Source: Nitrospirota bacterium (GTDB taxonomy: Bacteria; Nitrospirota; JACRHJ01). From it: 64,000 nt of DNA. This document shows, piece by piece, positions 55,041-64,000 of this stretch. The notes under the pieces were generated by a model. It saw only the letters and a program-made list of their open reading frames with translations. It had not been told where the DNA came from and searched no databases. The DNA is taken from the NCBI GenBank assembly GCA_021784575.1, contig JAJYHX010000007.1:1-64000 (forward strand), given 5' to 3'. The position numbers were made by a program, and so were the translations under genes. How positions within the stretch are numbered: the first letter of the stretch is position 1; each line of letters begins with the position of its first letter.

Positions 55041-56870
55041 ATGAAATCAGGCGGTTTCCCATTGGAGGGCCTCTTAAAAGCCGCGACACTCTTCTTCGCG
55101 GCGCTGCTCGCGGTCTTGACCATCAGCAGCCTCTCGCTAATCTACAAGACGAGGAAATACCTTGAGAGCGGGATGGACAAGAGGCTTCTGAACGCCTCGG
55201 ACATAGTCTCGAGGGAAATCCGCGACCGCTATCCGGAGTCCCTCAACGACCCGCGTTACCTGAACTCGCTGATGCAGCAGGAATCCCTTTTGAGCCTGAT
55301 AATCCTCGATCTTCGTCAGGGCGTGATTATCGACGCTTCCGGGAGAAGGCATAGCGGCGAACAGTTCATCCTCAAGGGCATTAACGGGCAGGATTTTAAC
55401 CTTGCCGCTTCAGGCAAGGTTAAAATCTCTCCGATTTACATGAACAAAAAAATGAGGCTCCGCTCGGTCTATTTCCCGGTAAAGGACCCTATGGGCAGGA
55501 TTATTGCCGTAGGCGAGGCCGCGCTCGACGCCGGTTATATCGAAGACCTTACGCAGCAGGGGACGACTTACTTCATCCTGAAGTCCATGTCGATAGGTTT
55601 CCTGCTTATCGCCGTATTGTATGTCATCAGGACAATGGCCGGCTCTCGCAAGAAGCTCCTTCAGACGGCAAAAGGCGCGCCGGTGGATGTAAGCCGTAAA
55701 GACCGGGACGACATATCATTTGTAATAGACACGTTTCAGCTTACCATAGCCTCTCTGAAAGAGAAGGAGAAAGAACTAAACGAGCTTAAGAACAGGGCCG
55801 AAGAGCGGGCGCGCAGCGTAGAGAGCATTAGCGAGACCATCCTGAAAAACATTCAGAGCGGCGTTATTACGTTCGACGCGGGGGGTACGGTGCTGACCGC
55901 CAACGAGTCCGCCGGGGCGATACTCGCAAGAGACAGGAACGCCTTGCCGGGAAACACTTGCCCGGAATTGTTCGGAGCCGGAAGCTGGCTCTCCGCGCTG
56001 GTGGAAAAGGCCGTAAGGAAGGGACGGGCCCAGAACAGGTCCGAGGGGGAAATAAACACGCCCGCCGGGAAACGCTGGATAGGCGCGGGGATTTCACCTC
56101 TTCTCCGGGAAGGAGCTACGGGCGGCGCGGTGCTCGTGTTCACCGACATCACAGAGGTAAAAGAGCTCCGGGAGATGATGGAGCTTAAGGAGAGGATAGC
56201 GCTCTTGGGGGAGATGTCCGCGGGGATAGCGCACGAGCTTCGGAATCCCATGGGCGTCATATCAGGGTATGCGGATTTCCTGGCAAGAAGTTCCGGGGAT
56301 GCGCCATCCCTTGAAGCGGCGCAGAGCATCCGGGAGGAGATAAAGGGAATGGACGAGATTATACGCGAGTTTCTCCATTTCTCCCAGCCTACGGAGCTTA
56401 ACGTAACACAGGTGGACTTGGGCGGGATTGTCGAGGAATCCTTCCGCGCGCTCGGGAACGACGGCGACGGAATAAAACGAAAGGCGCTTATTGACGAAAA
56501 CCTCCCGTCAATCGAGGGCGATGCCGTGCTCCTTCGGCAGGCGTTTATAAACCTGATAAAAAACGCGTACGAGGCGATGGACGGCGGCGGGAGCCTTACA
56601 ATAGCCGCGGAGGTTGAAAAAGGCGACGGGCCGGAGGCGTCCGACAGGAGGTTCGTCAGGCTCGATTTCCGCGATACCGGGCCGGGAATCGACGCTTCCT
56701 CGGCCGGGAAAATCTTTACCCCCTTCTTCACGACCAAGCCGCGCGGCACCGGGCTTGGATTATCCCTCGTCCAGAAGATAATTGTATATCACGGCGGCAG
56801 GGTTACGGCGTCCGCATCCGGGAGCGGAGGCGCGGTATTTTCGATATATCTCCCGGTAAAGGCTCACTAA
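55041..56870 (+). CDS. PAS-containing sensor histidine kinase
   Basis: A 609-residue inner-membrane kinase: TM1 (about 14-36), a periplasmic sensing region (about 40-175), TM2 (about 180-200), a coiled coil, a PAS domain (about 265-375), HisKA with phospho-His in AHELRNPMG near 398, and an HATPase with NAYEA, DTGPGID and TGLGLSLVQ. It is followed 9 bases later by a sigma-54 response regulator. The pair and the downstream pseudopilin genes resemble PilS-PilR, but the sensing region is not PilS-like (it has no six-TM domain), so the name is withheld. Confidence 0.92.
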   Translation: MKSGGFPLEGLLKAATLFFAALLAVLTISSLSLIYKTRKYLESGMDKRLLNASDIVSREIRDRYPESLNDPRYLNSLMQQESLLSLIILDLRQGVIIDASGRRHSGEQFILKGINGQDFNLAASGKVKISPIYMNKKMRLRSVYFPVKDPMGRIIAVGEAALDAGYIEDLTQQGTTYFILKSMSIGFLLIAVLYVIRTMAGSRKKLLQTAKGAPVDVSRKDRDDISFVIDTFQLTIASLKEKEKELNELKNRAEERARSVESISETILKNIQSGVITFDAGGTVLTANESAGAILARDRNALPGNTCPELFGAGSWLSALVEKAVRKGRAQNRSEGEINTPAGKRWIGAGISPLLREGATGGAVLVFTDITEVKELREMMELKERIALLGEMSAGIAHELRNPMGVISGYADFLARSSGDAPSLEAAQSIREEIKGMDEIIREFLHFSQPTELNVTQVDLGGIVEESFRALGNDGDGIKRKALIDENLPSIEGDAVLLRQAFINLIKNAYEAMDGGGSLTIAAEVEKGDGPEASDRRFVRLDFRDTGPGIDASSAGKIFTPFFTTKPRGTGLGLSLVQKIIVYHGGRVTASASGSGGAVFSIYLPVKAH

Positions 56871-56879
56871 GAGCAGGCT

Positions 56880-58235
56880 ATGGCTGAGAAGTTCAGGATA
56901 CTGATAATAGAGGACAAGAAGTCAATGGCGGAGATGCTGGCCAGGACGTTCGAGGCCGAAGGCTACATCGCGCTCACTTCCGGGACCGGCGAGGACGGGA
57001 TTTCGAAATTCCTGCGCGACGGGGCGGACCTCGTCCTGACCGACCTGAAGCTTCCGGGTATGAACGGCCTTCAGGTGCTGCGCGTCCTGAAGGAAAAAAG
57101 GCCGCTGACGCCGGTCATAATGATGACCGCGTTCGGCAGCATCGAAACGGCTGTCGAGGCGGTAAAGGCCGGGGCCTACGACTTCCTGACAAAACCGTTC
57201 GATACATCGCATATGCTGGCGCTCGTGGAAAAAGCTCTTGAGAGCGGTAAGCTTGCGGCGGAAAACCTCGTGCTGAAGGAGGAATTCGCCCGCGAGCTTT
57301 CGTTCCCGATGATAATCGGAAAGAGCAAGGCCCTTACAGATGCCCTGGAACTCCTTAAAAAAGCCGCTCCCACACGGGCGACCGTCCTGATAACCGGCGA
57401 GTCCGGCACGGGCAAAGAGCTTTTCGCAAAGGCCCTGCACCACCTCTCGCCCAGGAAGGACGGGCCGTTTGTGGCGGTGAACTGCGCGGCAATCCCGAAA
57501 GATCTGCTCGAATCGGAGCTTTTCGGGCACGAAAAAGGCTCGTTCACCGGGGCCGAGGCCAGGAGACTCGGCAAATTCGAGCTTGCGGACAAGGGGACGC
57601 TTTTTCTGGACGAGATAGGAGACATGGCCCTTGCGCTTCAGGCCAAGCTTCTCCGGGCGCTTCAGGGCGAGATGATAGAGCGCGTCGGAGGGGCGGAGCC
57701 TTTCTCCGTCGATGTGCGGGTCGCCGCCGCAAGCAACCGGGACCTTGAAAAAGCCGTCCGTGAAGGAAGTTTCAGGGAGGACTTGTATTACCGCCTGAAC
57801 GTGTTCCCGCTTCGCATCCCGCCTCTGCGCGATAGACGTGATGACATCCGGATCCTTGCGGAATATTTCATCGGGAAATACGCGGCGGAACTTAAGAAAG
57901 GGTTGTTCACAATTTCGGACGAAGCCATTGAAGCGCTCTCCGGCATGGAGTGGAAAGGGAACGTGCGGGAGCTTGCCAACTGCATAGAGAGGGCGGTCAT
58001 AATCGCGGACGGAGGCGAGATCGGCCCGGAATGTCTTGGCCTGGCCCCGAAGTTTATGGACGAATCGTCCGGCAGCCTCCAGAGGACTGCGTCGATTGCC
58101 GCAAAGGCGGCGGAGATGGAGGCGATAAAGGGCGCTCTTGCCGCCTCCGGCGGTAACAAGAGCCGCGCCTCGGAGCTTCTCGGCGTGAGCTACAAGACAC
58201 TGCTGACAAAGATAAAGGAATACGGCATTGGGTAG
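56880..58235 (+). CDS. Sigma-54-dependent response regulator (NtrC/PilR type)
   Basis: A 451-residue transcription activator. Receiver domain (about 1-120; LIIEDKKSM, phospho-Asp near 54 in LVLTDLKLPG, Lys in FLTKPF), a central AAA+ domain with Walker A GESGTGKE, GSFTGA (a functional variant of GAFTGA for sigma-54 contact), Walker B LFLDEIGDM, and a C-terminal Fis-type helix-turn-helix (NKSRASELLGVSYKTLLTKI). It most likely activates the sigma-54 promoter at 58341. Confidence 0.95.
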   Translation: MAEKFRILIIEDKKSMAEMLARTFEAEGYIALTSGTGEDGISKFLRDGADLVLTDLKLPGMNGLQVLRVLKEKRPLTPVIMMTAFGSIETAVEAVKAGAYDFLTKPFDTSHMLALVEKALESGKLAAENLVLKEEFARELSFPMIIGKSKALTDALELLKKAAPTRATVLITGESGTGKELFAKALHHLSPRKDGPFVAVNCAAIPKDLLESELFGHEKGSFTGAEARRLGKFELADKGTLFLDEIGDMALALQAKLLRALQGEMIERVGGAEPFSVDVRVAAASNRDLEKAVREGSFREDLYYRLNVFPLRIPPLRDRRDDIRILAEYFIGKYAAELKKGLFTISDEAIEALSGMEWKGNVRELANCIERAVIIADGGEIGPECLGLAPKFMDESSGSLQRTASIAAKAAEMEAIKGALAASGGNKSRASELLGVSYKTLLTKIKEYGIG

Positions 58236-58317
58236 CCGCTTACACAACCCTGTGAAGGGAATTACATATTATTAACAAAAATTAATTGAACTAAACCGGG
58301 AAAACCAATAAAATAAA

Positions 58318-58353
58318 GCCACTCCCGATTTTATGCGGAGTGGCATTTTTTTT
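58318..58353 (+). terminator. Rho-independent terminator after the response regulator
   Basis: GCCACTCC (58318-58325) pairs perfectly with GGAGTGGC (58337-58344) around an 11-base loop, followed by A and eight T residues. It ends the kinase-regulator transcript. The 3' half and T-tract overlap the sigma-54 promoter. Confidence 0.88.
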
Positions 58354-58356
58354 GCT
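58341..58356 (+). promoter_or_regulatory. Sigma-54 (-24/-12) promoter of the pseudopilin operon
   Basis: TGGCAT-N5-TTGCT: the GG (58342-58343) and GC (58354-58355) are 12 bases apart, exactly the sigma-54 spacing, and 14 of the key positions follow TGGCAY-N5-TTGCW. A start near 58367 leaves a 15-base leader with GGAGGG before the first pseudopilin ATG. The response regulator encoded just upstream is the natural activator. Confidence 0.75.
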
Positions 58357-58381: not shown

Positions 58382-59002
58382 ATGAGGTTTCTGAGAAATA
58401 AACGGGGTGTAACCCTGCTGGAATTGATGGTTGTGGTGGCGATTATAGGAGTGATGGTGGCAATTGCCGTCCCGTCCTATTACGCATGGCTGCCGAAGCT
58501 GAAGGTAAATCAGGCGATATTCCAGCTTTCCGGCGACTTGCAGTATGCCAGGTTGAGAGCCATATCCGAAAACATCCCCTGGGAAGTGCAATTCAACATT
58601 GCAGGCAATTCCTACAGCATATACAGGGATCCAAAAGACACCTTTAATCCCGCCAACCCTTCCGGCACCGCCTCTCTCGTCAAGACCGTGCAGCTCGTGG
58701 ACAATTCAGGCAGCATAATGGCCGTGAGGTCGGTTGTCTTCGGCTACAATGTCACAGGTAACGATCCCAACGGAGCGCCACTTCTGGCCGGGGGGGCCTC
58801 CAACGCGGTATTCAGTTCTTCTGATTATGAAAAATTCCTGCCGAACGGGACAGCCGATTACAACGGTGCGGTTTATCTTATACCGCAGGAAGACCTGACT
58901 GCAAACAGATACGACCGGAACAGGGCCATAACCATTACCGGCCTTACCGGTTTGATAAAGACCTGGCAGCATGACTCATCACAATCAGGAAGCTGGAAAT
59001 GA
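58382..59002 (+). CDS. Pseudopilin, GspH/FimT-like
   Basis: A 206-residue minor pilin. The type III leader (KRG before VTLLELMVVVAIIGVM) is cut after Gly, here followed by Val instead of Phe, and Glu5 is conserved. The long hydrophobic N-terminal helix and the following QAIFQLSGDLQYARLRAI block match the GspH/FimT group, which primes pilus assembly. ATG at 58382 has GGAGGG 5 bases upstream; an upstream frame to 58340 precedes the predicted transcription start. Confidence 0.88.
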   Translation: MRFLRNKRGVTLLELMVVVAIIGVMVAIAVPSYYAWLPKLKVNQAIFQLSGDLQYARLRAISENIPWEVQFNIAGNSYSIYRDPKDTFNPANPSGTASLVKTVQLVDNSGSIMAVRSVVFGYNVTGNDPNGAPLLAGGASNAVFSSSDYEKFLPNGTADYNGAVYLIPQEDLTANRYDRNRAITITGLTGLIKTWQHDSSQSGSWK

Positions 59003-59006
59003 CAAA

Positions 59007-59462
59007 ATGAAAACCAATATCGGGAACGAAGGATTTACGCTGGTGGAGGTGATGATAGCCTCCGTCATACTTGTGATAGGTCTGGTTGCCCTCCTCCAGC
59101 TTATCAGCATTGCCATTTACGGCAGCGTCGCCGGAAGAGATATTACGATAGCCGACAATATTGCGAACCGGCTCCTGCAGGATATGGATAACCGGGGCTA
59201 TCAGAACGCCATGAACAACATGACTTCTTCAGGCACGATCACGGATGGGACCAATACGGTCTATGTTTATGGAAGCGCTGTTACAACGGCCGGTTATTCC
59301 AGACAGCCGGTAACCGTGGGGCCGAAAAATTTTTACCTGAACGCCCAATATACGGACAATACGCCCTCAAAGGGTCTCTCGACCGTCAGAGTCTATGTAG
59401 ACTGGACGACCACCGGCCATCCGCATACCGTATCGTTCACGTCTTATTTTGATATGTCCTAA
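59007..59462 (+). CDS. Pseudopilin, PilV-like
   Basis: A 151-residue minor pilin with leader NEG before FTLVEVMIASVILVIGLVAL, Glu5 present. The size and sequence after the helix fit PilV/GspI-like minor pilins. It starts 4 bases after the previous stop and is probably translated by coupling. The C-terminal domain has no Cys pair. Confidence 0.83.
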   Translation: MKTNIGNEGFTLVEVMIASVILVIGLVALLQLISIAIYGSVAGRDITIADNIANRLLQDMDNRGYQNAMNNMTSSGTITDGTNTVYVYGSAVTTAGYSRQPVTVGPKNFYLNAQYTDNTPSKGLSTVRVYVDWTTTGHPHTVSFTSYFDMS

Positions 59463-59474
59463 GGGAGGAAAGTC

Positions 59475-62400
59475 ATGTCTGCCCAGAGAGGTTTGAAAGA
59501 CAAAAAAGGTTTTACTCTTATAGAACTGATGGTCGCCATGGCTGTAAGTCTGATTATAATAGCCGCCATATTTGGCGTCTACGAGACTATGAACAAGTCG
59601 AACCTCTCCATAAAGGCGTCCTCCGACATGCAGCAGAATGTCCGCACCGCTGTCGATTCGATAACGAAGATGATGGTAAACGCCGGTTACCAGGGCCAAT
59701 GGAACAATATCCTGGGAAACCACAGCACTGCTGTTGACGGCCTTGTTTACCAGAGGGCCTCGTACGACAATTCATTATCCGCCCCCAACAATACCGGCGT
59801 AGTCTCCGGCCCCAACTCGATATGTTTTACCTATTACGACGATAATCACGTGTTCAGCTCCGGCTCCAACGGAGAATGGCGGGTGCAGATATACATGGAC
59901 AGCGCCGACCAGGAAATACTCGCCAATTTTGAACAGTTCAACACAACTTCGACCCTGTTCGGTCCGGCTGCGAACGGGTGGAGTGTTGTTCTGGCAAGGG
60001 GCATCAGCAACCTGAGGTTTCAGTATTACAACGCAGACGATAACGACATCACTTCGTCATTGTCTTCGCAAAGTATTGGAACCGTAAGAAAAATCACGGT
60101 TACCGTTACCGGGAAAACTTCCTTTGCGCAGTTTATATCTAACGGCTTCAGGTCGTTCAGTCTTTCGACGGATGTTACGCCCGTGAACCTTGGCATCGCA
60201 GGGCATATTGTCGACGCTTATCCTCCGGCGACTCCCACGGGACTCTATGTAAGCGATCCGCATACCTGCACCAAGCTGACGGTTCAGTGGAACGCCAACA
60301 AGGAGGTCGATCTTGCCGGATATACTATATTTTACGGCATAGCTACCGGCAAATATGACCATAGAGTTGATGTGGGCACGGTTTCGAACAACGGCATCTG
60401 CACCTATACGCTGCCTCCTCCCGGCGAAACCCTGAATGCGGGCACGGAATATTATATTACCATAGGAGCCAGCAACACCAGCGGCCTGATGAGCAATCCT
60501 CTGGCGACGGAAGTTTCCACCGGTGTCGTGACGCCGGGCATTGGCACCAACCAGACTACCCCAACCGAGTATCCGCCCAGCGCGCCGGTTGTTATGGCCG
60601 CTGCCGGGCCGGGCGATGGCGCTATAACCCTTACGTGGACCGGCAACCCGTCCAACGAAGGAGTGACAAGCTACAGGGTATACAGGATGTCGATTCCCAA
60701 TCCGAGCAGTCCGCCTGCTTTCAGCTATCCGATACCCGATACCCCTGAGCCGGCAAATCCGGCCCCCGGGGTGCCATATCGCGTGGACACCGGCACTACA
60801 GGCAACAAGCCGGTGACCCAGGTGGTATTAAACAACAACCAATCGGGGTTTCAGTTTAAGGACTACGGCCTCCAGGGGTGCACAATGTATGAATATGCGG
60901 TTTGCGGCGTGAACTGCACGCAATCCGCCACCGGCCCGATTTCCAGTCCTTATTCCTCCGCCCAGTATTGCACGTTATACGGCGGCAGTTATACCGACAG
61001 CAACGGCGTGCCCCATACGATAAGCTCTCCGGTTGCGGGCGAAGTGACCAAACCTACCGACGGCACGCCTCCGCCTCCGCCGACAGACCTTGTAGGCATT
61101 CCAGGGTCAAAAGTGGTGGACCTTTCCTGGACCAACCCGACCGGAGATCCGGATTTTCAGGGCGTTATGATACGGAGGTCTACGGGCGGTTATCCCGCGT
61201 CGCCAACCGACGGCACCCTCGTGTACAACGATTACTCCTCAGCCGCCGGGCAATCCTGCACATATCATGATACCGGCGTGGCCGATACAGACCCCCCAAC
61301 CTGCTACTACTACTCCGCGTTTTCATACAACAAGTGCGGTATCTACAACAGCACTGCCGTGGAGAGTCTTAATTTTCAGGGGGCATCGACGCCCGCATGT
61401 TCCCAGCCGTGCAGCTCCGCGCTATATGGAGAGCCGCCGGCCCCGCCAATGGACAAGTACTCAATGTCGTACTGCGCGGACAAGGTAAACCTGGGCTGGC
61501 AAGACCCGTCCAACCTAACCAGCTATCCGGACTTTACCGGTTACGACATCTATCGTTCGGATAACGGCAGCACGCCGATACAGAGTAACTACAAATCGTC
61601 CAACACAAACGTCTATTCGGATACAACTTATATACAATCGCCAGGCGGCGACGGCGGCGTATACAGCTATCACGTAAGGACGACGGACTGTTCGGGCGGA
61701 TTGAGCAACGCTACCTCGATAGTCACCCTTACAGCCTATCCGGGCCAGGTGCTTTACGACCCGAGCGCCGTCAACTCGACGAATACTAGCGCGCCGAACA
61801 CGCCGCACACGAACATAACCGTTTCCACGGGCATGTATCATAACACGCTTATTTTTGACGCCAGCAACACAAGCTCGCATGAGGCGGAGCTTGACGGCAT
61901 GACGCTTACCTGGAAGGGCGGCGGCACCGAGACTAACGCCATGCTTACAGGCGTCTCCATTTACGATCCGACCCAGAGCAAATGGGTCTTGGTTTACAAC
62001 AACAGCAGCGGCGGCGTATCGACCGATACCCCCATAGTCTTTAATGCCAATACGCCGTTCTATATCCCACAAACCACGAACGGCATAGGCTCGGAAGAAA
62101 CCGTCCCGATGCAGTTTACCTGGGAGAACGCCGACGGGACCGTGTCTTCAAGCGACGACATGCGCAACGCGCTCGTCACCATAACCTTTAATTACAGGCT
62201 CTTCTACTACAGTTCTTACACCTCCGGTTATCTCTTGTCCGACCCCACCCTCGCCGGATGTTCCCCGGTAGTTTATAATGTTGTCCAGGCCGCAGGGCCG
62301 AATTTCATGGACGTAACGCAGAGTCAGCCCCTGCAGGGGACATTCGCCGAAACGCAGCTGGGCTATCTGACCGCTCAGCCCGGCCAGACTACGGACGTAA

Positions 62401-64000
62401 GTTCGTATGTTACGGATACCTCGCCGAACCTGGCGGGGATACAGTATGTGCATCTGTTCTATGCCGTTACCGCAAGGGATATTACCGCGCCGCCGGCCGT
62501 TGGCTCCGCGCCGGATAACATTAACCTGAAATCAAGCGTTAACCCCAGCGGCTACACCTGTATCACGACCGTCCCTGCAAACACGGGCAATTACGTGCAG
62601 TATGAGACGTCTTTTACCAACAGCAGCGGTATCGGCACCAATAGGCCCATACCCGCGTTCGACAATTCCAGGATATGGTATTTCCTGGTCGCAAAGGACA
62701 ATAACGGCAACTTTACCCGCTGGCCCGCTCCGAGCTCGCCTGACGCGATATATACTTACGACCAGCTCGGCGGCGGCGGCAACACGGCCACCACCGTTTC
62801 CGTAAAAATAACCTCGCCGGCAACCGGGAGCACTATCACTTCGTACACGACCGCCACGCTTGCCACCACCGACACAGGCTCCGGCGTTACAAATGTCATG
62901 GTGAACGTAGACGGCGGCAGTTATCAGAGCTGCTCGTACGACTCGTCTACCGGACTATGGGACTTTGTCATTGACCCCGCGATATACAGCAACGGCACCC
63001 ATACGCTGAACGCCGTGGCCACGACCGCCGACTACCACTCCGCGACGGATTCCATTACGTTCAATGTCGTCGGCGGCAGCGGGACAACAAGCGTATCGGC
63101 ATCGATAGCGTCGCCGGCATCAGGCGCCACGGTATCCGGAACCCAGGTAATACAAGTCCAGTCCGCCGCGACCGGCGCACCCGCAGGCGGCATAACCGTA
63201 TCGGTAAACATCGGCGGCACAATTTATCCCTGCACATACAACATCAGCGACGGCTATTACGAATATTCCTGGGATACCACTCATATTACGAACAATTCTT
63301 CGGTTTCGATATCCGCCACGGCGACATACATCGGCTCAAACGCCACTTCCTCGCCAATCTCCGTTACTGTTAATAACGCTTCGGGCAACCTCCCGTCAGT
63401 CAGTATCGTATCGCCGGCCTCCGGCGGTCTTGTCACCGGGAGCACTACGCTTCAAATTGAGGCTAATCCCAACGGCGGGATTATAAACTCGAGCGCTGGC
63501 GTGCAGGCGTCGTATGACAACGTCAACTGGACGCCCTGTCCGTATAACTCGGCCGACGGTTACTATGAACAGGCCATTACGGTAACGCCCCCGGTGGCAT
63601 GTAAATCTTACACAATCTATGTATATGCGACCTCGACCAACGGCAGGTCAACCACGGTTCAGGAGACCTTCTATGTAGACACGACAAGCGCCGTCTCGTG
63701 CACCATACAGCCTCCGGCCAATCCAGTGGCTACAGCATGGTATGTCGGGCCTCCGTCTAACGCGCAGGCGACTATTGGCATAACCACCGGAACAGACGGA
63801 GACGCCATAGGCGGGGTTACCGTCTCCATAGACGGCGGCACGCCCATCGCCGCAACAGGCTCCGGAAATTCCTGGAGCTACGTGTGGAATATCCCGAGCA
63901 GCGATTCCAATACAAGCCATACCGTGTCGGCGACCGCCACAACCGTCTCCTGCACGGGCAAGTCCATGATCGCCGCCGCGACGCCTGTAACCTTCAACGT
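59475..64000 (+). CDS. Giant PilW-like pseudopilin with FN3 and Ig-like repeats (runs off window)
   Basis: The frame from the ATG at 59475 (AGGGAGG upstream) stays open for at least 1508 codons to the window end. The N-terminus has a type III leader KKG before FTLIELMVAMAVSLIII with Glu5, then a PilW-like region to about residue 245. Four FN3-like domains follow (about 250-345, 365-480, 530-640, 655-755). A variable region (about 756-1105) is followed by four Ig-like repeats of about 100 residues (from 1108, 1206, 1306 and 1405), each with an ITSPATG-like opening and a C-x-Y turn. Normal PilW is about 250-350 residues. The extracellular part suggests adhesion or a pilus-tip role; this is inference. 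Confidence 0.85.
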   Translation, partial: MSAQRGLKDKKGFTLIELMVAMAVSLIIIAAIFGVYETMNKSNLSIKASSDMQQNVRTAVDSITKMMVNAGYQGQWNNILGNHSTAVDGLVYQRASYDNSLSAPNNTGVVSGPNSICFTYYDDNHVFSSGSNGEWRVQIYMDSADQEILANFEQFNTTSTLFGPAANGWSVVLARGISNLRFQYYNADDNDITSSLSSQSIGTVRKITVTVTGKTSFAQFISNGFRSFSLSTDVTPVNLGIAGHIVDAYPPATPTGLYVSDPHTCTKLTVQWNANKEVDLAGYTIFYGIATGKYDHRVDVGTVSNNGICTYTLPPPGETLNAGTEYYITIGASNTSGLMSNPLATEVSTGVVTPGIGTNQTTPTEYPPSAPVVMAAAGPGDGAITLTWTGNPSNEGVTSYRVYRMSIPNPSSPPAFSYPIPDTPEPANPAPGVPYRVDTGTTGNKPVTQVVLNNNQSGFQFKDYGLQGCTMYEYAVCGVNCTQSATGPISSPYSSAQYCTLYGGSYTDSNGVPHTISSPVAGEVTKPTDGTPPPPPTDLVGIPGSKVVDLSWTNPTGDPDFQGVMIRRSTGGYPASPTDGTLVYNDYSSAAGQSCTYHDTGVADTDPPTCYYYSAFSYNKCGIYNSTAVESLNFQGASTPACSQPCSSALYGEPPAPPMDKYSMSYCADKVNLGWQDPSNLTSYPDFTGYDIYRSDNGSTPIQSNYKSSNTNVYSDTTYIQSPGGDGGVYSYHVRTTDCSGGLSNATSIVTLTAYPGQVLYDPSAVNSTNTSAPNTPHTNITVSTGMYHNTLIFDASNTSSHEAELDGMTLTWKGGGTETNAMLTGVSIYDPTQSKWVLVYNNSSGGVSTDTPIVFNANTPFYIPQTTNGIGSEETVPMQFTWENADGTVSSSDDMRNALVTITFNYRLFYYSSYTSGYLLSDPTLAGCSPVVYNVVQAAGPNFMDVTQSQPLQGTFAETQLGYLTAQPGQTTDVSSYVTDTSPNLAGIQYVHLFYAVTARDITAPPAVGSAPDNINLKSSVNPSGYTCITTVPANTGNYVQYETSFTNSSGIGTNRPIPAFDNSRIWYFLVAKDNNGNFTRWPAPSSPDAIYTYDQLGGGGNTATTVSVKITSPATGSTITSYTTATLATTDTGSGVTNVMVNVDGGSYQSCSYDSSTGLWDFVIDPAIYSNGTHTLNAVATTADYHSATDSITFNVVGGSGTTSVSASIASPASGATVSGTQVIQVQSAATGAPAGGITVSVNIGGTIYPCTYNISDGYYEYSWDTTHITNNSSVSISATATYIGSNATSSPISVTVNNASGNLPSVSIVSPASGGLVTGSTTLQIEANPNGGIINSSAGVQASYDNVNWTPCPYNSADGYYEQAITVTPPVACKSYTIYVYATSTNGRSTTVQETFYVDTTSAVSCTIQPPANPVATAWYVGPPSNAQATIGITTGTDGDAIGGVTVSIDGGTPIAATGSGNSWSYVWNIPSSDSNTSHTVSATATTVSCTGKSMIAAATPVTFN

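Follow-up and report, generated by a model that had tools for sequence, protein, structure and literature searches.

The question raised by this locus is what a minor pilin of well over a thousand residues does in a type IV pilus operon. The gene concerned lies at the end of a 64,000-nucleotide window, the first 64 kb of the 98,467-base contig JAJYHX010000007.1 of a Nitrospirota bacterium (assembly GCA_021784575.1; genome of 2.1 Mb in 14 contigs, 96.7% complete), which, together with its relatives, looks like an uncultured environmental bacterium and shows no sign of being a pathogen. In the described diderm type IVa pili, PilY1 sits on the minor-pilin complex as a cap and is responsible for adhesion. 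As judged from its sequence, the protein studied here is an unusually large modular pilin occupying the J slot of its operon. We put at roughly two in three the probability that it is a giant J-type minor pilin whose extension serves as a pilus-tip adhesin in place of PilY1, with adhesion and tip location being the parts that we infer.

A sequence-only reading of the window had described a PilW-type pilin joined to four FN3 domains and at least four immunoglobulin-like (Ig) repeats, exceeding 1,500 residues. The frame, still open at the window's end, was completed on the same contig, where it stops 370 bases further on; it is one intact gene encoding 1,631 amino acids (aa), and the FN3 and Big_7 profile searches bear out the domain content. 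A frameshift or assembly join between the pilin part and the repeats, the fault which that reading had named as fatal to it, was not seen. The idea that an assembly or frame error had fused a pilin gene with an unrelated adhesin gene was rejected and has a negligible probability, as the fusion is unbroken at the same locus in independent genomes (G numbers denote Nitrospirota genomes, G000 being the source genome, and f numbers families): the independent assembly JAJYJM010000004.1 (G001) carries the same gene with 1,603 aa at ~78% identity, and the orthologs of G002, G004 and G005 have 1,489 (from the chosen start), 1,458 and 1,802 aa, respectively, while that of G003, whose contig stops within the operon, is of undecided status. 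The gene contains only short, diverged repeats, the longest family in a DNA repeat search having 44 nt at 73%, and because no long near-identical DNA repeats were found inside the gene, an assembly error caused by repeats is improbable. The sequence-only reading had expected variation in length and repeats between strains; the protein differs in length and in its number of Ig domains from species to species, with four Ig domains in the source genome and G001, six in G005 and none in G002 and G004.

The border between the pilin and its extension is given in Table 1. Canonical PilW proteins of relatives (~260–400 aa) end like EVKPRNIGL, VIPRNHAISQ or IEVRNPGR; the matching DVTPVNLG of the giant continues straight into the FN3 part, and the pilin module ends where its canonical relatives end. 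The N-terminal class III signal and N_methyl segment of a modular type IV pilin are present, FTLIE supplies Glu5, the J-type N-terminal signature is found, and an extra non-pilin module (FN3, Big_7) is joined to a complete pilin module. With Pfam, N_methyl (33.6 bits, cut-off 21.2) and Big_7 (64.2 bits) are above cut-off, while fn3 gives one match of 19.9 bits, below its 25-bit cut-off. The extension past the canonical PilW end measures ~1,390 residues and consists of FN3 domains, two conserved unnamed domains, here called M1 and M2, and Ig repeats. By iterated profile, M1 is shared by the giant pilins of families f1, f19 and f24 and, more weakly, f2. In M2, an alignment of nine giants reveals a conserved C-terminal stretch (..RxWYxLVAxDNxGN..P..YTYDQ) with near-invariant R1066, W1068, Y1069, D1075, G1078, N1079, P1084, Y1095 and D1096; conservation drops sharply past about residue 1105, and the variable part is the Ig tail. 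Five cysteines of the FN3 region (C265, C481, C621, C646 and C739) are invariant in all nine, and they may brace these domains by disulphide bonds. In a sequence search of the PDB, the pilin helix alone found matches (Geobacter and other pilins), and FN3, M1, M2 and Ig found none. The giant is the third gene of an H-I-J-K operon (GspH, I-type pilin, giant, PilX_N), and it is the best match in the source genome of our J profile (110 bits, the giant itself being a row of that profile).

When the J-type N-terminal profile was run over 197 Nitrospirota genomes, J-type frames longer than 1,000 aa were found in 12 of them, belonging to 10 genera and five families (f1, f2, f13, f19 and f24), with giants of 1,104–1,276 aa in the four other families; in a repeated search of the 64 remaining genomes, the J-type frames listed were all ≤463 aa. 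The giants of f1, f19 and f24 share the FN3-M1-M2 plan, those of f2 carry Invasin_D3/Big_1 repeats and those of f13 give weak Big_1 matches, and by these matches different lineages carry different kinds of graft. On a MutS tree, the giants do not form one clade, and the PilY1 genomes G130 and G148 sit among giant genomes of the same families. A single origin of the giants was rejected on this tree (approximately unbiased test; one marker, quick tree).

The distribution of PilY1 was examined in the same genomes. The sequence-only reading had pointed downstream for this gene, yet none was found in the operon, among the genes after pilX (by inspection, a CBS-domain gene and tsaE-like, NAD kinase-like and mutS-like genes) or anywhere else in the genome, and the C-terminal beta-propeller of PF05567 is absent from both the giant protein and the source genome. 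Pfam PF05567 placed PilY1 in 107 of the 197 genomes, none of them with a giant, and missed it in several control genomes (G009, G018, G029, G037, G043 and G047). A five-row Nitrospirota PilY1 profile was built, which recovered these Pfam-negative controls with very high scores and raised the count to 137 of 197; it found no PilY1 in any of the 12 giant genomes of this set, and none in the further giant genome G002 or in G003, whose status is undecided. The possibility that PilY1 had merely been missed by Pfam in giant genomes was rejected, since the lineage-specific profile still found none. No genome of this phylum that was searched yielded both a giant pilin and PilY1. Fisher's test gives p 2.8e-7 by genome (0/12 giant against 137/185 others) and p 2.6e-6 by genus (0/10 against 69/90), both values being inflated by relatedness, and the MutS tree calls for six or more changes from giant to PilY1 or the reverse. 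In one genome, several PilY1 genes occur in tandem minor pilin clusters (G174:C58).

PilX is also altered in these loci. Its length is 460–595 aa in 11 giant loci compared with 158–230 aa in 14 sampled PilY1 loci, and it is large in all giant loci examined; in the source locus, it has more than twice the usual size, and the part after PilX_N has no Pfam match. This observation bears on the possibility that the extension replaces PilY1 in a structural sense, stabilizing the priming complex or plugging the secretin pore, with adhesion residing elsewhere, for example in PilA or exopolysaccharide. The enlarged protein is the tip neighbour of PilY1 (PMC13190605), and PilY1 is also a priming factor (PMC7541494). 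However, a plug or primer needs no Ig tail that varies between species (four, six or no Ig domains) and no such fast divergence between flanks that are 82–93% identical, and we consider this explanation unlikely. In the f2 genome G006, a normal J (303 aa) and no PilY1 were seen together with a 521-aa open reading frame resembling an enlarged PilX.

The source genome encodes a complete type IVa set comprising PilB, PilT, PilC, PilMNOPQ and two PilA-like pilins, with PilB and PilT above curated cut-offs, PilQ above cut-off, a PilC match and PilM, PilN, PilO and PilP present, from which we infer a retractile type IVa pilus. It could be argued that the giant is spread along the shaft, or that the operon serves a short filament like that of a type II secretion system (T2SS) and not a retractile pilus, given that the genome has further secretin genes and a second PilM/secretin/GspG-like cluster, and that PMC8179133 could not exclude a position of modular pilins along the shaft. 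We regard this as very improbable: the complete H-I-J-K set found in the operon makes up the tip complex in other systems (PMC10191384), both PilT and PilQ score above cut-off, and a subunit of 1,631 aa is an unlikely periplasmic pseudopilin. The second cluster, located apart from the type IVa machine (G000:C6:122000-140000), contains a PilM-like protein, a GspM/PilO-like protein, a TPR-secretin lipoprotein and GspG-like pilins, and is possibly a T2SS- or MSHA-like filament.

If the giant is a tip adhesin, PilD would cleave its prepilin, and its pilin helix would dock with GspH, PilV and PilX to give a priming complex at the tip. The chain of beta-domains, ~30–40 nm long if extended by our own estimate, would pass through the PilQ pore and act as a stalk with an adhesive head, taking over the contact function performed by PilY1 elsewhere.

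The four pilin genes change together between better-conserved flanks. Within the genus, the flanking regulator is 88–93% and the kinase 82–89% identical, while for H, V, W and X the identity of the G000/G001 type to the types of G002 and G004 is 28–43%; the W protein of G000 is 38% identical to that of G005, which belongs to another genus, compared with 30% to that of G004. DNA identity to G004 (85%) ends at 58228 and returns at ~65940, so the exchange is limited to the four pilin genes; the flanking DNA is ~81–85% identical, and in G004 the four genes are inverted relative to the flanks. By these comparisons, congeners exchange the four-gene cassette as one block. In f19, the giant cassettes (G082 and G104) and a PilY1 cassette (G130) are all found close to gyrA, and in G104 and G130 a kinase gene flanks the cassette at its opposite side. 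The post-pilin module is itself separable because in G005 it is carried by two different proteins: residues 261–1791 of the pilin, that is, everything after the pilin border, recur at 64% identity over ~1,530 residues on a 2,442-aa protein (G005:C52) with a signal-peptide-like start, an SBBP beta-propeller, TSP3 repeats and the FN3-M1-M2-Ig module.

Such exchange could be the result of selection on an exposed tip by substrate or phages. A stronger version of this view, in which the cassette serves above all as a target for phages or grazers, exchange is escape and adhesion is secondary, draws on the contrast between flanks of ~81–85% DNA identity and gspH-pilV-pilW-pilX products of 28–43% protein identity, as well as on the inverted replacement in G004. 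It nevertheless leaves the absence of PilY1 and the conserved M1/M2 core unexplained, and it is compatible with a tip adhesin rather than exclusive of it; as an explanation of its own, it appears improbable. The interpretation given by the sequence-only reading is supported in part. Its PilW-type pilin with a giant part appended is borne out; its suggested "one-protein" tip adhesin is too simple a picture, as PilX has grown as well and H, V, W and X travel together, and its other suggestion, a long surface filament anchor, gained no specific support. In a wider sense, these loci might represent a second, repeatedly evolved PilY1-less type IVa tip, consisting of a giant J pilin and an enlarged PilX in a four-gene cassette exchanged at one chromosomal site, with lineages switching between PilY1 and giant tips, a proposal for which we see the chances as evenly balanced.

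Several points weigh against the giant as an adhesin in PilY1's place. Only three phylogenetically independent pairs are informative, although in all of them giant and PilY1 are opposed as expected (sign test, p 0.25). PilY1 is also absent in 48 of the 185 non-giant genomes, and therefore the absence of PilY1 does not demand a giant pilin. The Pfam PilW model gives no match to the giant at E 0.01, and the assignment to the J type comes from operon order and from a profile made in this analysis. AlphaFold2 models of residues 12–355 and 766–1106 from two-row alignments had a mean pLDDT (predicted local distance difference test) of 36 and were not used. FN3 and Ig chains are often inert spacers too.

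Modular pilins of other kinds have been reported. In Streptococcus sanguinis, the modular pilins PilB and PilC bear adhesive domains (PMC8179133, PMC10191384), and PilABC replace PilHIJK (PMC10191384). Like the giant, PilB and PilC carry non-pilin domains C-terminal to the pilin module, and a tip location has been proposed (PMC8179133, PMC9934059). S. sanguinis is a monoderm, its PilB has 454 residues with one vWA module and its PilC has a lectin module, whereas the giant has 1,631 aa with about ten beta-domains, a diderm-type machine and a full H-I-J-K set in which the J slot is enlarged. More than 1,200 modular pilins with 264 architectures have been listed from InterPro, with fn3 (IPR003961) among the 15 commonest modules (PMC8179133); pilin-fn3 proteins are already counted there, and the giant is of the same kind, although the multi-domain extreme quoted is a protein of 860 aa in which one motif occurs 12 times (PMC8179133). 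CpaL of Caulobacter, a predicted pilin-vWA fusion at the tip (PMC12607857), resembles the giant in joining a minor pilin-like module to a large extracellular domain with a predicted tip position and differs in its Tad (T4c) pilus and vWA domain. The PilY1/PilC tip adhesin (PF05567) is likewise a large modular protein tied to a minor pilin operon, for which the same role is proposed, but it is a non-pilin with a C-terminal beta-propeller, and the giant is a pilin without that propeller. The open-access literature searched contains modular pilins and no report of a J-type giant replacing or excluding PilY1, and the giant is a variant of this known kind not previously reported there. If the proposed role is correct, the function of PilY1 would be open to takeover by a pilin, providing a natural system that separates priming from adhesion. 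Cassette exchange between congeners and the occurrence of the module on a secreted-type protein would offer a natural domain-swap series for finding the attachment targets of these little-known Nitrospirota.

Table 1. Features of the giant pilin locus (positions of the window, continued along the contig beyond 64,000).
Feature	Position	Strand	Evidence and remarks
Sensor histidine kinase (PAS, HisKA, HATPase_c)	55041..56870	+	Pfam; 82–88% identical to congeners
NtrC-family sigma-54 activator	56880..58235	+	Pfam Response_reg, Sigma54_activat, HTH_8; 88–93% identical to congeners
Terminator-like hairpin, 27 nt, then eight T	58318..58353	+	Sequence and fold, -15.8 kcal/mol for 41-nt stretch
Sigma-54 (-24/-12) promoter-like element, TGGCAT-N5-TTGC	58341..58355	+	Sequence; upstream of gspH
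GspH/FimU-type minor pilin (H)	58382..59002	+	N_methyl and GspH above cut-off; ATG at 58382
PilV/GspI-type minor pilin (I)	59007..59462	+	N_methyl above cut-off; type assigned by gene order
Giant J/PilW-type modular minor pilin, 1,631 aa	59475..64370, past window end	+	Frame and Pfam
Pilin module, residues 1–245	59475..60209	+	Cleavage motif KKG/FTLIE, J-type QQNVR signature, ends DVTPVNLG
Four FN3 domains, residues 249–342, 366–483, 531–626, 654–747	60219-60500, 60570-60923, 61065-61352, 61434-61715	+	Profile search (profile from first FN3 of five relatives)
Domain M1, residues 783–920, without Pfam name	61821..62234	+	Iterated profile
Domain M2, residues 921–1105, unnamed	62235..62789	+	Alignment of nine giants
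Four Big_7 Ig domains, residues 1109–1179, 1208–1273, 1308–1370, 1429–1485	62799-63011, 63096-63293, 63396-63584, 63759-63929	+	Pfam and Big_7 profile
Further Ig-like end domain	After fourth Big_7, to 64370	+	Big_3_2 match under cut-off in G001 ortholog
PilX_N pilin, 498 aa, fourth gene of operon	64385-65881, outside window		Pfam

With regard to regulation, the terminator-like hairpin lies between the regulator and the cassette and overlaps the promoter-like element. In each of the five species examined, TGGCAY-N5-TTGC occurs a short distance before gspH, even where the surroundings are unlike. The overlap with a terminator-like hairpin is found in the source genome, G001 and G002, while G004 and G005 have no such hairpin there; because the element elsewhere overlaps a hairpin, G004 and G005 alone support the promoter independently. 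An Rfam scan of the locus gave no match. The conserved element and the adjoining NtrC-type regulator suggest that the cassette is under sigma-54 control, and the NtrC-family gene is the candidate regulator, which together with the neighbouring kinase would switch the cassette. In addition, an inverted-repeat-like motif, GTAGCCG-TTACAC (58232-58245), overlaps the stop codon of the regulator gene, and a similar sequence occurs upstream of gspH in relatives; it may be where the adjacent NtrC-type regulator binds.

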